NCBI RefSeq assembly: GCF_019393635.1
Contig: NC_057867.1
Coordinates: 4,376,889 to 4,440,888 of the forward strand
Source: Dromiciops gliroides
Lineage: Eukaryota; Chordata; Mammalia; Microbiotheria; Microbiotheriidae
Reading direction: 5' to 3'
DNA: 64,000 nucleotides
How positions within the stretch are numbered: position 1 is the stretch's first letter; every line of letters begins with the position of its first letter. Below are positions 3,214-60,767 of the stretch, one piece after another. Under the pieces are notes generated by a model. That model was not told the origin of the DNA. It saw only the letters and a list, made by a program, of their open reading frames with translations, and did no database searches. A program made the translations under genes and the position numbers.

Positions 3214-3351
3214 TGGGCAGCTAGGTGGCACAGTGGATAGAGCACTGGCCCTGGAGTCAGGAGTACCTGAGTTCAAATCCGGCCTCAGACACTTAACACT
3301 TACTAGCTGTGTGACCCTGGGCAAGTCACTTAACCCCAATTGCCTCACTAA

Positions 3352-7689: not shown

Positions 7690-8570
7690 TCTAGAGTTAA
7701 TTTGGATTCTTTCCCTCTCCTTCAGCCTCCATAGCTGCCCAGTGGACACTAAGATGGACTGACTTTCTTCATTTGCAGTCTCCATCCATTTCTTCCTTTT
7801 CATCCCTAGTTCTAGTCCTCATGGCCTCTTCTAGTCCAAATCATCATTTTAGAAAGGAGGAAGCTGAGGCACAGAGAAAAACCCATGCCAAGTGAAGCCT
7901 GAATAACAGCCAACCCCAACTCTCTGGTTTCCCAGGCTACAGTCTGTCCCTGCTCTAACCCGTCACACACATCCAGCCGCACTCATAGAACTAAATCACC
8001 ACTTTACAAAAGGACGTTTCCTGCCTTAAAACCCTTCCGTGCTAGGGGCAGCTAGGTGGTGTAGTGGATAAAGCACTGGCCCTGGATTCAGGAGTACCTG
8101 AGTTCAAATCCGGCCTCAGACACTTGGCACTTAACTAGCTGCGTGACCCTGGACAAGTCACTTAACCCCCATTGCCCTGCACAAAACAAAAAAAAAACCC
8201 CTTCTGTGCTGCCCATAGTTTATAAAATAGCTTACATTGGCACTCAAGGCCTTCCCTAAGCTGGCCTCAACCTGCCTCCCACAAAACTCTGCTCCAACCA
8301 TGTCTTGCCCTTTTCCCATCATCACGCTTGTGCTTCTCCTCTGTGCTCTTCCGGCTTCTGTTGCCCTTCATCCCTAGCATGTCAGAGTTGGCTCCTCCAG
8401 AGAAAAGCTGTCCACCTTTACCAGCTGCCGTCACTGGAACTTTTGGTCCTGAAAAGCCCAGTGTGCCCCCTCCCCCTGTCCTCCTGCCTGGGAAACTGAT
8501 ACCAGCTAGGCTCAGTGCAATGCCATTTGTTGCAGACCTACCCCTGACCCCACCTGCTTCCTAAGGTTCC
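7690..8570 (+). mobile_element. L2 LINE 3' region, split by a SINE
   Basis: The L2-like 3' region has 'actttacaaaaggacgtttc' before the SINE and 'gcactcaaggccttccctaa' with 'cttcatccctag' after it. The WSINE-like copy at 8045-8193 sits inside it and resolves the relative ages: L2 first, SINE later. Confidence 0.6.
8045..8193 (+). mobile_element. WSINE1-like CORE-SINE nested in L2
   Basis: It starts GGGGCAGCTAGGTGGTGTAG and ends in an A-rich tail. The flanks 'acccttccgtgct' and 'ccccttctgtgct' look like an imperfect target duplication. It is therefore an older copy than those near 2.4-3.4 kb. Confidence 0.9.
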
Positions 8571-12037: not shown

Positions 12038-12184
12038 GGGGGGCTGCTAGGTGGCAAAGTAGATAAAGCACCGGCCCTGGATTCAGGAGGTCCTGAGTTC
12101 AAATCTGGCCTCAGACACTTGACACGTACTAGCTGTGTGACCTTGGACAAGTCACTTAACCCTCATTGCCCCTGCCAATTAAAA
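12038..12184 (+). mobile_element. WSINE1-like CORE-SINE
   Basis: A plus-strand copy with head GGGGGGCTGCTAGGTGGC, then 'caccggccctggattcagga' and 'gacaagtcacttaaccctca'. The tail is short and I see no clean target duplication. It sits beside a piece of L2. Confidence 0.88.
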
Positions 12185-23306: not shown

Positions 23307-23499
23307 GAGTCTAAGGAAGGGGGCTAGCCCCTTGAGACAACTGCAGAGTTCCTAGAACCATGGACAGCTCCCAGGACTCCATCCACCTGGCTGGGGCAGA
23401 CTACAGTGGTTGAGGTCCTTGCTTATAAATATTTGTTGACTGGATGGCTGGCTGATCTCTAGCAATTCTCTAGTTCCAAGGTGCCCCTCCTCCTCCTAC

Positions 23500-23720
23500 C
23501 CAGCATGCTGCTGGGCCACCTCCCAGGCCTCCTCCCCTTCCCACCAGTCCCTGTGTGCTCAGGGACTGCAAACTCATCCTAATATTGACCCAAGCAAAAC
23601 AGAATTAGGAAGGGAAACAGCTATAAAACAAATCATATTATGCATCTCCAGGCCAAACAAGAAGGATTTAGGGATTATCAGGAGCCCTGCTGCTCTGTCA
23701 GGGCAGATCATCAAAAGGGG
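23500..23720. promoter_or_regulatory. Candidate non-coding element, copy 1 of a related pair
   Basis: A unique stretch with 'gcaaactcat' at 23576, 'aagcaaaacagaattaggaa' at 23592 and 'aggatttagggattatc' ending at 23679. The same words, in the same order, occur at 60,371-60,498 in the first intron of the downstream gene. Function as an enhancer is inference from that pairing and from the lack of any repeat match. Confidence 0.45.
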
Positions 23721-23814
23721 ACTTGATTATCCAAAGGCAAGAATGGGGCACAAGGCGAGAAGAGGGACTGATGCAATTTATGCGGGAAAGAAAAAAAAAG
23801 CAGATTCTGGCTGC

Positions 23815-50143: not shown

Positions 50144-50285
50144 GGGGCAGCTAGGTGGCTCTGCAGTGGATAGAGCACCGGCCCTGGATTCAGGGGGACC
50201 TGAGTTCAAGTCTGGCCTCAGACACTTAACACTAGCTGTGTGACCCTGGGCAAGTCACTTAACCCCAATTGCCTCACCAAAAAAA
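50144..50285 (+). mobile_element. WSINE1-like CORE-SINE with 13-bp target duplication
   Basis: Plus-strand full-length copy starting GGGGCAGCTAGGTGGCTCTG and ending in an A tail. Target AAATTGGAACCAT is repeated at 50131-50143 and 50286-50298. Confidence 0.94.
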
Positions 50286-52265: not shown

Positions 52266-55200
52266 TGTATTACCCCTGAAGTATTTTCTCCCTCAAAATA
52301 TATGAGGCCATAAAATTTAACCCCCCCCAATATCTGCTCTGACTATTTGTTTATTTGTGTTCCTGAACCCCATGCTAGGCTGTCCTCGGGGAGACCCAAA
52401 TTTTAGGGAGGACACTTTCCCTGTTCTCAGGAACTTCCCCTTTAAGTTGGAGAGAATGAGGCAGAGACACTAATAATACCTTCAATGATCCCAGGAAAAC
52501 ACAAGCAAGGGCTGCCCCCTCCGAAATCTGGCACACCCTGCTGCAGTGTCTCAAGCTCCGGGCCCAAGCCATCCATCCGGTGCCAAAGAAGGCCTAAGAA
52601 AGTATACCCTAGATTGTGTTTGGAGTTGAAAATTCTACCCTCAGACACACATGAGAAAAAAGACACAGCTTCAAGTTGTCCCCTGGTGGTGTCTCATACC
52701 ATCTCCGCCACTAGGCCATAGGCTCAAGCTTCTTCCCTTCCTCTTCCCCTCCACTGAGCCCCACCAAGGCAACTTGAGACCCTTTTAGGATTGAGAAGAG
52801 GCCACGAGGAAGAGTGAGGTAGTCAGCAGTCCAGTAGTGGCCTGGCTGACCATGGCACCAAGGAAGCAGCTATTCCAAGCTGGGCTTTGGCCTCTTAGAG
52901 GGCTTCTAGGAGGCAGCAAGGGGATAGGGGACAGGTCTGGCCAGGGCGTTTGGTATATTAGGCCAACCCATAACAGTTGGTGTGCCTGCCGGCTCAATAG
53001 CTATATAAGAGGATTCCATCTAGGCAGGAAAAAGAGCTCTTAAAGAATCCAGCCCTGCCAATAGCCAAATAAGACAGACACCCAGGCAGTAGGGCAAGGC
53101 AGTGATGACTAGAGCAAGCCTTAGGAGAAAAGTAGGAAGCAAGTCAGGAATAGCTAAGCTCAAGAGCTGCCTGGTTGCCTACCTCCCCAGGGGAGAAGGC
53201 CTACCTTCCAACTGCAGCTCTGGGTGGGGCCGAATTGTAGCTCCTGTTCAACTTTCCAGGGAGGTTTATATCCTTTGGTTTTCTGGGTTTCTAAAGTGTC
53301 TCCACTCCAACATTGATGGCAGTTTTATGCAGCTTGTGGTGTGATGAATGTCATGCAATGAATGGAGCTGTTGATAAGGCTTCTTTGAAGTCTGTGAGTA
53401 CCAAGTGCTCAACCATCCCAAGGTGTGCAGTGGGCAGATAATGCCAGTTACCTCAACACAGAGGAATTGCTAAGACAAAATCCAAGAAGGGGGAATGGTA
53501 GAGAGAGAAACCAGAGGTACACACTAAAGAGAAGTTTGGGAAAATAAGGCAGAACAAGAGAAAGGAGACATATTCTAGGAGATAGGGAAAGAGACAAGAG
53601 AGGACCACAAAGCCCTGATGGAGAGGTCCCAAAGACATCCAGATATCTAAGACAGGAGTGTAGACAAGAGAAAAGAAAGGGAGATGGAGAAATAGAGGCA
53701 AAAATAAAGCAAATAAAGCAAATGGAGAATGAACAGTTTATTAGGTGAGAAAAGGAAGTAGGGGGTAAATTCCCCACTCCTATGCTAGGGGGCTCCACCT
53801 GCACCTACCCCTAGCTGAGAAGGCCTGGCCCATCTCTAAGAATCCCAAAGCTTCTAGCACATATATTCAGAAAACTTGGTGGATTTTGATACCAAATAAT
53901 GGAGAGCAAAAGCAGCCTCCCAGCCTCCTAGCCTCCCAGCCTCCCTGCCTCCACCCCATCTACACCATTTTGCTCAAGTCACCCATCCACCTGTTTATGA
54001 TTCGATTCACTGGCCAGAGGCAGAAGCTGGTGGTGCAGCAGCGCCTGGGATGCTCACTTGCTGCTGGACAGGCAGGGATAGGCGTCCAGGGCGCAGACAA
54101 GGTGAGGGGGCGCATGCCCTGCATTGGCTCTCCCAGGGAGCTCCACAAAGCTCTCAGAGAGGAAACCAGCCCTTCCCTCTGGTCCCTGGTTCCCCTGCCC
54201 CCCTCACTCCTTCGCTCACCTCCCCTGCTATGCTCCCCCTAGAGCGTTCGCGCTTCCACCCCGCAGGGAGCTCATTCGGATCGCTCTGTGCCCCTGTGCT
54301 TTCTCTCCTGCACATCCATCGGTCCTCCCTGTCAGCCAGCCTGGGGTAGGGGTGGGAGGTGGGGTAGGGGCTGCGGAGGGAGCCCTGGGTGAAGGGGCAA
54401 GTGGCTCACGCCCATCCACCCCCCAAAGTGGCTTAGATCGGCTCGTGGCTTAGATCCGCTCGGAGGGAGGCAGCGAGCGGCGCCAGGCCAGCTTGCCAGC
54501 CTGCTGCCTGCTGCCTGCCCGGCCAGGCTCAGCCCAGCTCGGCCAGAGAGAGAAGGAGGGAGCGTGAGAGAGGGGAGGGGGGGAAAGAGAGAGAGCGAGG
54601 GGAGGGGAGGGGAGGGGACTGCGAGCGAGCGCGGGCGTGAGCGCGCGAGCCTGTGGGGAGGGGGAAAGTTTGGCAGAGGCTCCTGGGGGCTGCTGCTTTA
54701 GCTGGCCGAGTGCACGGTCGCCACCAGAGCGCTCCTGGACTGCGCGCCCTCCGGACCTCGGAGGAGAGCGCCCCAGAGCCGGAGGAGAGCAGCTCGGCGC
54801 TGGGACGGACCCTGGCCGGATCCCATCGGAGCAGACCGGAGCACAAGGAGCGGAGCGGAGCTGAGCAGAGCTGAGCGGAGCCGGGGAGCGGACCGGGGCT
54901 GCCTGCGCCTCACGGCCCCGCCGCCGCAGGCCAGCGCACCGACATGCGGCGGCGCCACACGGCAGCTGCCCCGGCTGCCGGGGACACCGACCCACCACCC
55001 TCTCCAGACGCCACCCCTGAGGGCCTGGGACCTTCACCGCAAGGAGTGGAGGGAGGCGCAGTGGCGCGGCCGCACCCGGAGGTGGGACATGGGGGCAGCC
55101 GGCAGGGCTGCGGGAGCGGGAGCTGGAACCCTGGGGAGCAGCGGGGAGGGCGCACCGGGGCCTGGCCTCAAGCTAGGGGAGAGCAGTGCGCCGTGCGCCT

Positions 55201-55833
55201 CTGCAGCGGCTGGGGAGACGGAGTCCAGGCAGGCAGGAGCAACAAGTGCTTGAGTGAGCGAGCGCACAAGCCGGCCAATGTGGGGGTGCAGTGAGCCGCC
55301 GGGGAGAGGGGGCCGCAGCCGGACACGGGAGGTGGGGGGAGAGGCAGGGCTAGCCGACCAGCCACGGGCCGCTTGGCTGGGCTGCAGAGCCGAGACGGAG
55401 ACAGGAGGTTAGGGGAGAGGAGAGCGGGGAGCTGAGAGCGCCTCCAGGGAGCGCAAGAGACTGGAGGAGGTGGAAGCGGCAGGGCTGTCCCGGTGCTGCC
55501 CTGCACGGAGGCGGGCGCGTTATCTCCGGGACCCACCTCCCTCTCAGCTAGTGCCGCAGAGGCAGCACAGGCTGGGCTGGGCCGGGCCCCCGGCCGGGGA
55601 GCTAGAGCGAGAGCTGAGAGCTGGCGGCAGCGGCTCGGTTCCTCCAGGCAGCCAGGCGGCCGGGCCGGCAGGCAGCAAAACCAAGCAAAGCCAGGGAGCC
55701 CCCCGGCGGCTTCTATAGCTCATCTTGGGGCTGCCCGCCTGCCTGTGTGAGCGCTTGAGCCCGGGGCGCAGGCGGGAGGCAAGAGGCAGGCGGTGGGCTG
55801 GTGGGCTCGGCTTGGCTCCCAAGCTTGCTCGTG

Positions 55834-55839
<6 letters not shown>

Positions 55840-55929
<90 letters not shown>

Positions 55930-56014
55930 ATTTTATTTCTCTCTCTTGCTGTCTCTCTCTATTTCTCTCTCTCACACACACACACACACACGCACACACA
56001 CGCACACACACGCA
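55840..56014. repeat. (TC)n then (CA)n inside the CpG island
   Basis: About 85 bp of TC repeats, broken once by CAATC, are followed by a short diverged pyrimidine stretch and then a (CA)n run interrupted by CG (ACACACGC units). It lies just upstream of the possible exon-1 donor, so it may be part of the 5' leader or the core promoter. Confidence 0.96.
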
Positions 56015-57430: not shown

Positions 57431-57622
57431 ATGGCTGAGCTGCTGCCACCAGGGGACTTGGTGGCCGGGAAGCTCAGGGAGTCTGGCTCCTCTCTGGACT
57501 TGGACAGGCTGGCTCCAGCTGAGGGGCCGGGAGAGGAATCCTCTGGCAGCGAGGGAGAGCAAGAAGGAAGCTCCCACAAGCTCATCAGCAAAGTGTCCAC
57601 ATCAGGCCAGATGAGGAGCAAG
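57431..57622 (+). CDS. First coding exon of an unrecognised plus-strand gene
   Basis: The exon probably runs from the acceptor CTTGTCTTTTAG (AG at 57338-57339, with a good pyrimidine tract) to the donor AGCAAG|GTAAGG (GT at 57623-57624). The start at 57431 has a strong context, GGGACCATGG. It encodes 64 residues and ends in phase 0. The protein begins MAELLPPGDLVAGKLRESGS and has an acidic, Ser/Glu/Gly-rich middle (EESSGSEGEQEGSS). It ends HKLISKVSTSGQMRSK, a basic segment. No signal peptide or known domain is visible, so it looks like a disordered N-terminus of a nuclear or cytosolic protein. I do not recognise the family. The last four residues, MRSK, equal the known N-terminus of PRDM16 and MECOM/MDS1, which start MRSK and splice near there into a huge intron. 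If that is right, residues 1-60 would be an in-frame extension. Four residues are weak evidence. The rest of the gene lies beyond the window. Confidence 0.7.
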
Positions 57623-60099: not shown

Positions 60100-60290
60100 C
60101 TAATATTATTATTGATTCGTGCAGTTGAGTGGCGCTGGGGGTGTCAGATACCCATTAATTTTAACAAATTTCTTTGGATTTCTTTTATTCCCTCTCCTTT
60201 CTCAGATGAATAAAAGCAGATAAAATTAGAAATTGAGAGCCCTTATTTAGAGGCAGCTCACAATTAGCCATAGGGGGCTTATTGGTGGCA
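60100..60290. promoter_or_regulatory. Candidate intronic conserved element
   Basis: A unique block with 'cccattaattttaacaaatt', 'aaagcagataaaattagaaa', 'ttagaggcagctcacaatta'. TAAT and GATA-like words (AGATAA) are frequent. It directly precedes the paired element. Confidence 0.35.
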
Positions 60291-60299
60291 AATGTTTAA

Positions 60300-60520
60300 T
60301 CCCAGACTGGTTCCCCCCTCCCCTCCAACCTCCCAGCTCCCCCCACCCCAGTTGTGCTCAGTCAGGGAAGGCAAACTCATTAGTCTAAGCAAAATGGAAT
60401 TAGGGAGGCAAATCTTCCAGGGGGAAACAACAACAACAAAAAACCCACCAACCATAGAGTGCTTTCCATGGCCCAAGAGAAATGATTTGGGGATTATCTG
60501 CACCACTGCTTTCCTCTATT
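60300..60520. promoter_or_regulatory. Candidate non-coding element, copy 2 of a related pair
   Basis: It contains 'gcaaactcat' at 60371, 'aagcaaaatggaattaggga' at 60388 and 'atgatttggggattatc' ending at 60498. All three also occur in this order at 23,576-23,679. Upstream C-rich text and 'gtgctcag' also correspond. A CAA-repeat expansion at 60,427-60,440 lengthens this copy. Enhancer role is inference. Confidence 0.45.
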
Positions 60521-60767
60521 ACCACAGATAATTGAGAGTTGGGGATAAGCTTGCAAGCAGTGACTCTCTTTCCCACTGAAACCCAGGGCCTCAGCACAGA
60601 CAAATGTGTAGTTAATTCAATAACAGGGTGCCTATATTGTCAAGGTATTGTTAGTGTCATTAATAAGGAAGACTGGGCTTGGATTTGGGGGGAGGGGTGG
60701 TGGGTGAGAGAAATGTTAGATTGGTCTATTTCCATTCTCCTTTCTGGTAGAATCCTGGGAGAGCCAG

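Follow-up and report, generated by a model that had tools for sequence, protein, structure and literature searches.

Two apparently independent copies of an ancient repeat, probably of Tc1/mariner type, on either side of the presumed DGKK promoter of Dromiciops gliroides

The window, a 64-kb stretch of Dromiciops gliroides DNA, holds two related non-coding elements, copy A and copy B, which lie on either side of the presumed DGKK promoter. With a probability that we put at about 0.92, they belong to a single ancient, non-autonomous family of Tc1/mariner type, as independent copies that are near full-length but heavily mutated. The copies and their surroundings are as follows.

23428..23723, plus strand: copy A, near full-length, profile positions 22-322 of 325; nhmmer E 6.7e-48, rank 3 of the 40 places scored in the genome search
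23665..23679, plus strand: the GATTTAGGGATTATC block of copy A, in the 3' subterminal part of the element
54001..56000, plus strand: GC-rich stretch (0.685), by its composition presumably the DGKK promoter together with the region of the 5' untranslated exon
57431..57622, plus strand: first coding exon of DGKK, with 64 codons and a GTAAGG donor behind them
60250..60543, plus strand: copy B, near full-length, profile positions 3-321 of 325; nhmmer E 2.2e-40, rank 13 of the 40 places scored in the genome search
60484..60498, plus strand: the GATTTGGGGATTATC block of copy B, in the 3' subterminal part of the element

Copies A and B have three blocks in common, in the same order and on the same strand: GCAAACTCAT, AAGCAAAANNGAATTAGG and GATTT(A/G)GGGATTATC, the first of which begins at 23,568 in A and at 60,371 in B. 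A sequence-only reading had noticed these collinear blocks, at 23,500-23,720 and 60,371-60,498, as well as C-rich text upstream of them; both were found again, and the C-rich text corresponds in the two copies. The same reading held chance to be an unlikely cause, and the controls bear it out. The local alignment of 23,450-23,750 with 60,280-60,540 (match 2, mismatch -3, gap -5/-1) scored 75, far from the shuffle level, the best of 500 dinucleotide shuffles giving 34. Under two other scoring schemes, the alignment reached 69.5 and 480, while the shuffle maxima were 34.25 and 339, so that in each of the three schemes the real score was attained by none of the 500 shuffles. The next best matches in the same 64 kb scored 35 against A and 37 against B. 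As a single gapped pattern, the first two blocks occur at two sites only in the window, namely A and B, with 0 expected. When 391 repeat-masked 300-bp segments of the window were compared all against all on both strands (about 152,000 pairs), A-B was the top pair; the runner-up, an unrelated pair of low-complexity appearance, scored 68. Plain blastn of the window against itself gave A-B only E = 0.28, with many other pairs scoring better, because long gaps separate the blocks and are penalised by blastn. While the resemblance noticed earlier stood, its extent did not: by profile, the copies span 23,428-23,723 and 60,250-60,543. The window also carries copies of another dispersed repeat, at 3215-3344, 8046-8175, 12041-12170 and 50148-50277, with 60-88% identity to its first copy.

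The translation of the 64-residue exon is 89% identical to the diacylglycerol kinase kappa of Petaurus breviceps and 83% identical to that of Antechinus flavipes. It corresponds to residues 1-64 of both marsupial DGKK proteins, the match stops exactly at the exon end, and the window therefore represents the 5' end of DGKK. The 13 other proteins matched belong to birds, turtles and a lizard; their identity is 68-79% across 92-100% of the exon, except for one turtle protein with 88% across 52%. The source names of the 13 non-marsupial matches are mostly kappa or unspecified, two being "delta-like". A Platysternon (turtle) protein with the DGKK exon bears the source name transmembrane protein 192, which is apparently wrong. 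An assignment to PRDM16/MECOM, guessed from the last four residues of the exon, was ruled out by the DGKK match over all 64 residues. No later DGKK exon was found in the 26 kb after the first coding exon at E up to 0.01. Among ten ORFs of the GC-rich region and the exon, Pfam gave no matches but ones under the curated cut-off; the search of solved structures gave a single match, at E 9.7, and Rfam gave 0 matches at the gathering score. The window sits on an 85-Mb contig of the 3.3-Gb assembly. Relative to the first coding exon, copy A is about 34 kb upstream, and copy B is about 2.6 kb downstream, within intron 1, the intron in which a reported association at this gene would lie.

Both copies belong to a dispersed family. 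With A as the query, its own genome (3.3 Gb) returned A itself and 11 other places with E from 2e-17 to 3e-6 and 72-86% identity over parts. A search with a 260-nt consensus, in which A, B and seven of those places were combined, yielded 274 candidates, and the 40 that were scored all had E 3.1e-18 or better. We aligned the best 30 of these 40 places with their flanks, A and B included. Agreement per 20 columns was 0.59-0.88 inside and 0.41-0.52 outside, which delimits an element of ~320 bp. Its ends, TACAGTCAACTCTCAATTATC and the reverse complement of TATAGTCAACTCTTAATTATC, are inverted repeats, alike at 19 of 21 positions with TA included. TA is the consensus at both ends: at the 5' end, T is present in 22 and A in 20 of 29 copies, and at the 3' end, T in 16 and A in 21 of 30. 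This partial retention of the TA flanks counts against the transposon reading, and no empty insertion site came to light. A profile built from 28 copies, with A and B left out, was run over 104 kb around DGKK. It recovered A (E 6.7e-48) and B (E 2.2e-40), both almost end to end, and besides them nothing better than E 1.1.

Inverted ends adjoining TA are a hallmark of Tc1/mariner DNA transposons. In addition, the GGATTATC words inside the element ends are, we presume, akin to Tigger-like subterminal repeats. Judging from its ends, the element would thus be a non-autonomous DNA transposon of the Tc1/mariner type. The 30 aligned copies are 58-79% identical to the consensus, which suggests great age. 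Copy A has no clear 5' end. The segment adjoining it, 23419-23455, presumably resembles the tail of an L2 element and may have taken the place of that end of A.

Taken together, the searches with A, the consensus, the 3' part and the 5' part identified at least 117 distinct places on 7 contigs, a lower bound since each larger search scored 40 (the 3' part gave at least 40 candidates, and of the 44 obtained with the 5' part, 40 were scored). Six pairs were found within 50 kb, compared with 0.19 expected, and 57 within 5 Mb, compared with 20.5, and none of 2,000 random placements attained either number. There were 12 pairs within 1 Mb against 4.1 expected (reached by 2 of 2,000). Random placement is a weak control here, as copies may persist only in certain kinds of DNA. 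Based on the first 40 places alone, a single 37-kb pair is modest, as at least one pair within 50 kb arose in 124 of 5,000 random sets; were all 274 candidates real, about 0.8 pair within 50 kb would be expected. Other close pairs or clusters exist on C4, C1 (a pair at C1:613.8 Mb) and C7, so A-B is one of several. At C4:156517950-156523152, three copies (L012, L051, L069) lie inside 5.2 kb in two orientations. The copies at C7:52183093 and C7:52203670 (L087 and L079), one on each strand and separated by 20 kb, show the same match figures and probably represent an inverted segmental duplication. Eleven of the 117 places fall in a 14-Mb stretch, C3:491.4-505.3 Mb, which could be a regulatory desert where copies persisted. 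Two exact patterns scanned in viral and prokaryote contigs gave 0 matches, a result with no bearing on vertebrates.

The middle of the element is its best preserved part, and A and B retain it to different degrees:

23551..23623, plus strand: core of copy A, agreeing with the other copies at 61 of 73 positions, which places it 12th from the bottom among 30
60354..60419, plus strand: core of copy B, agreeing with the other copies at 51 of 66 positions, which places it second from the bottom among 30; an 8-bp deletion follows GCAAACTCAT

In the middle 74 columns (GTGTGTGCTCAGGG...GTAAATCTGCTG), the mean agreement was 0.848 compared with 0.647 elsewhere, and the core exceeded the rest in all 30 copies, which were, however, picked through the core, so that selection bias is possible. 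Leaving out TG/CA sites changed little (core 0.858, rest 0.674). In a neutral simulation, core-based picking produced a core-over-rest rise of 0.07-0.12 on average and 0.14 at most, compared with the observed 0.20. We also drew two samples by the ends of the element, each made up of the best 20 of 40 places: one with the 5' 110 nt as the sole query, the other with the 3' 112 nt alone. Of the 20 5'-picked copies, 15 had a core and 8 a far end that scored above the 99% shuffle level (mean scores 54 vs 25); of the 20 3'-picked ones, 13 and 5 did so (41 vs 22). In both comparisons the core is nearer to the query end than the far end is, the end consensus letters derive from core-picked copies, and some matches may be related elements with only one end in common. 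In copies with both parts detectable, the identities of the core and the far end were 0.84 vs 0.82 and 0.83 vs 0.78. The samples overlap the first set in L056 (3'-picked) and in L072 and L078 (5'-picked), while L051 (3'-picked) is 1.7 kb from a place of the first set. L079 and L087, both in the 5'-picked sample, do not differ in their values, one probably being a copy of the other; the ten loci L039-L048 enter no count. Overall, the figures favour selective retention of the central ~75 bp in at least part of the family, and its greater persistence relative to the ends hints at co-option somewhere in the family.

Several other origins of the pair were considered. A single DGKK regulatory element copied inside the locus, giving a duplicated enhancer, would fit with A and B being on the same strand, 36.8 kb apart and both almost full length. 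Yet the two copies have no special kinship. Their identity, 57.9%, ranks 203 of the 435 pairs formed by the 30 copies, and they have 10 non-consensus bases in common, compared with a mean of 14 per pair. Copy A is far closer to L002, a copy on another contig (95 bits), than to B (34 bits), and blastn of the window against itself showed no A-B match beyond the element at E up to 1. The absence of kinship argues for independent insertions, and by this comparison A and B are separate insertions, not a duplicated enhancer; local duplication is very improbable. Thus, of the two origins that the sequence-only reading had proposed, the ancient repeat is upheld by the dispersed family and the profile matches, whereas the duplicated enhancer is not, A and B being no closer than average copies. 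An ancient SINE such as LF-SINE is just as improbable. LF-SINE is an old conserved repeat family with some enhancer-derived copies, and its age and dispersal fit loosely, but inverted ends with TA flanks suit a DNA transposon and not a tRNA-derived SINE, and ARAGORN found 0 tRNA genes in the window. The closest approach to an A box in the 260-nt consensus, on the minus strand, agrees at 11 of 12 positions, and the closest to a B box at 8 of 11; on both strands, the B-like site comes first and the A-like site second. The most far-fetched origin is a conserved coding exon, even though the frame with SK(T/M)ELGR and DLGII is open in both copies, for 125 and 85 codons from stop to stop. The copies differ by 8 bp in the distance between the first two blocks, which breaks the frame at that point, and a protein search with both frames gave 42 word-sharing candidates, none with E up to 1; we rejected the coding-exon reading of A and B.

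Separately inserted copies could each have turned into an enhancer of DGKK or of a neighbour, acting redundantly and flanking the promoter. We judge such a co-opted pair to be rather unlikely, and this judgement covers at least a shared regulatory role. In its favour are the excess of the core over the rest in every one of the 30 copies (0.848 vs 0.647 on average), the end-picked copies that keep the core more often than the far end (15 vs 8 and 13 vs 5 of 20), the clustering of copies (6 pairs within 50 kb vs 0.19 expected), and the co-opted enhancers reported from other ancient repeat families (PMC3757057). However, just one of the 30 cores is poorer than that of B, which also has a deletion, and the core of A is 12th from the bottom. 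Moreover, core-based picking alone adds 0.07-0.12 on average (at most 0.14) in the neutral simulation, the core and the far end are nearly equal in identity where both are detectable (0.84 vs 0.82; 0.83 vs 0.78), and the core is closer to the query ends, whose consensus came from core-picked copies. For the copies taken singly, co-option of A is a possibility that we would take seriously while leaning against it, and co-option of B seems unlikely, both by judgement. Passive survival is, in our judgement, a little likelier than function, by about three to two for A and three to one for B. A broader scenario, which we consider improbable, is that the family core served as a ready-made binding platform and was co-opted many times in marsupials or earlier, DGKK being among several sites where at least two independent copies were retained near each other and served as redundant enhancers on both sides of a single promoter.

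The reading that we prefer, independent insertions of one old transposon family, would account for the pair in the following way. The ~320-bp element has TA adjoining its ~19-bp inverted ends and no coding capacity that we could see. Each copy would have been inserted long ago by a transposase acting in trans, and A and B would flank the DGKK promoter by happenstance. Co-option of some copies by their hosts, perhaps as platforms for the binding of transcription factors, may be why the core is the best preserved part. What looked like a duplicated enhancer would then be two transposon insertions, datable in other species, and any regulatory role at DGKK, if true, would represent convergent co-option and not duplication. 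DGKK is named in parts of the literature on hypospadias and fragile X, and old regulatory repeats at this gene, if true, would be of note for that reason; our literature search found no paper joining DGKK with conserved noncoding elements. If neither copy is functional, the case would still illustrate that collinear non-coding blocks can mark old repeats that standard self-alignment scores poorly.

Paralogous enhancers, that is, duplicated conserved non-coding elements, resemble the present case in that two related non-coding stretches lie near one gene. Unlike A and B, which are related via a mobile element present in more than 100 copies, they arise by locus duplication. Closer parallels come from ancient repeats. 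The families described in human DNA by Kojima (2018, PMC5753468) include the Mariner/Tc1 families MER127, MER132, MER116, UCON39, UCON42, UCON104, MARE1, MARE10 and others, and a report cited there describes 96 families of conserved non-coding elements, some of them related to MER121, LF-SINE and AmnSINE1. Enhancer marks are enriched on several ancient repeat families (Wenger 2013, PMC3757057; PMC6904449). MER121, LF-SINE, AmnSINE1 and MER130 are similar to the A/B element in being old dispersed repeats. MER121 is, however, listed as a hAT element (PMC5753468) and LF-SINE as a tRNA-SINE (PMC4255032), and both differ from the A/B element, whose inverted ends are flanked by TA in the consensus. 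The ancient non-autonomous Tc1/mariner families, compared by their descriptions and not by consensus letters, are alike in being the old dispersed remains of DNA transposons. In particular, the description of UCON39 is that of a non-autonomous Mariner family that begins with the target duplication, TA, as its first two letters (PMC5753468), and in this it agrees with the end consensus found here. By description, then, the A/B element is probably one of these Tc1/mariner families or a marsupial relative of them.
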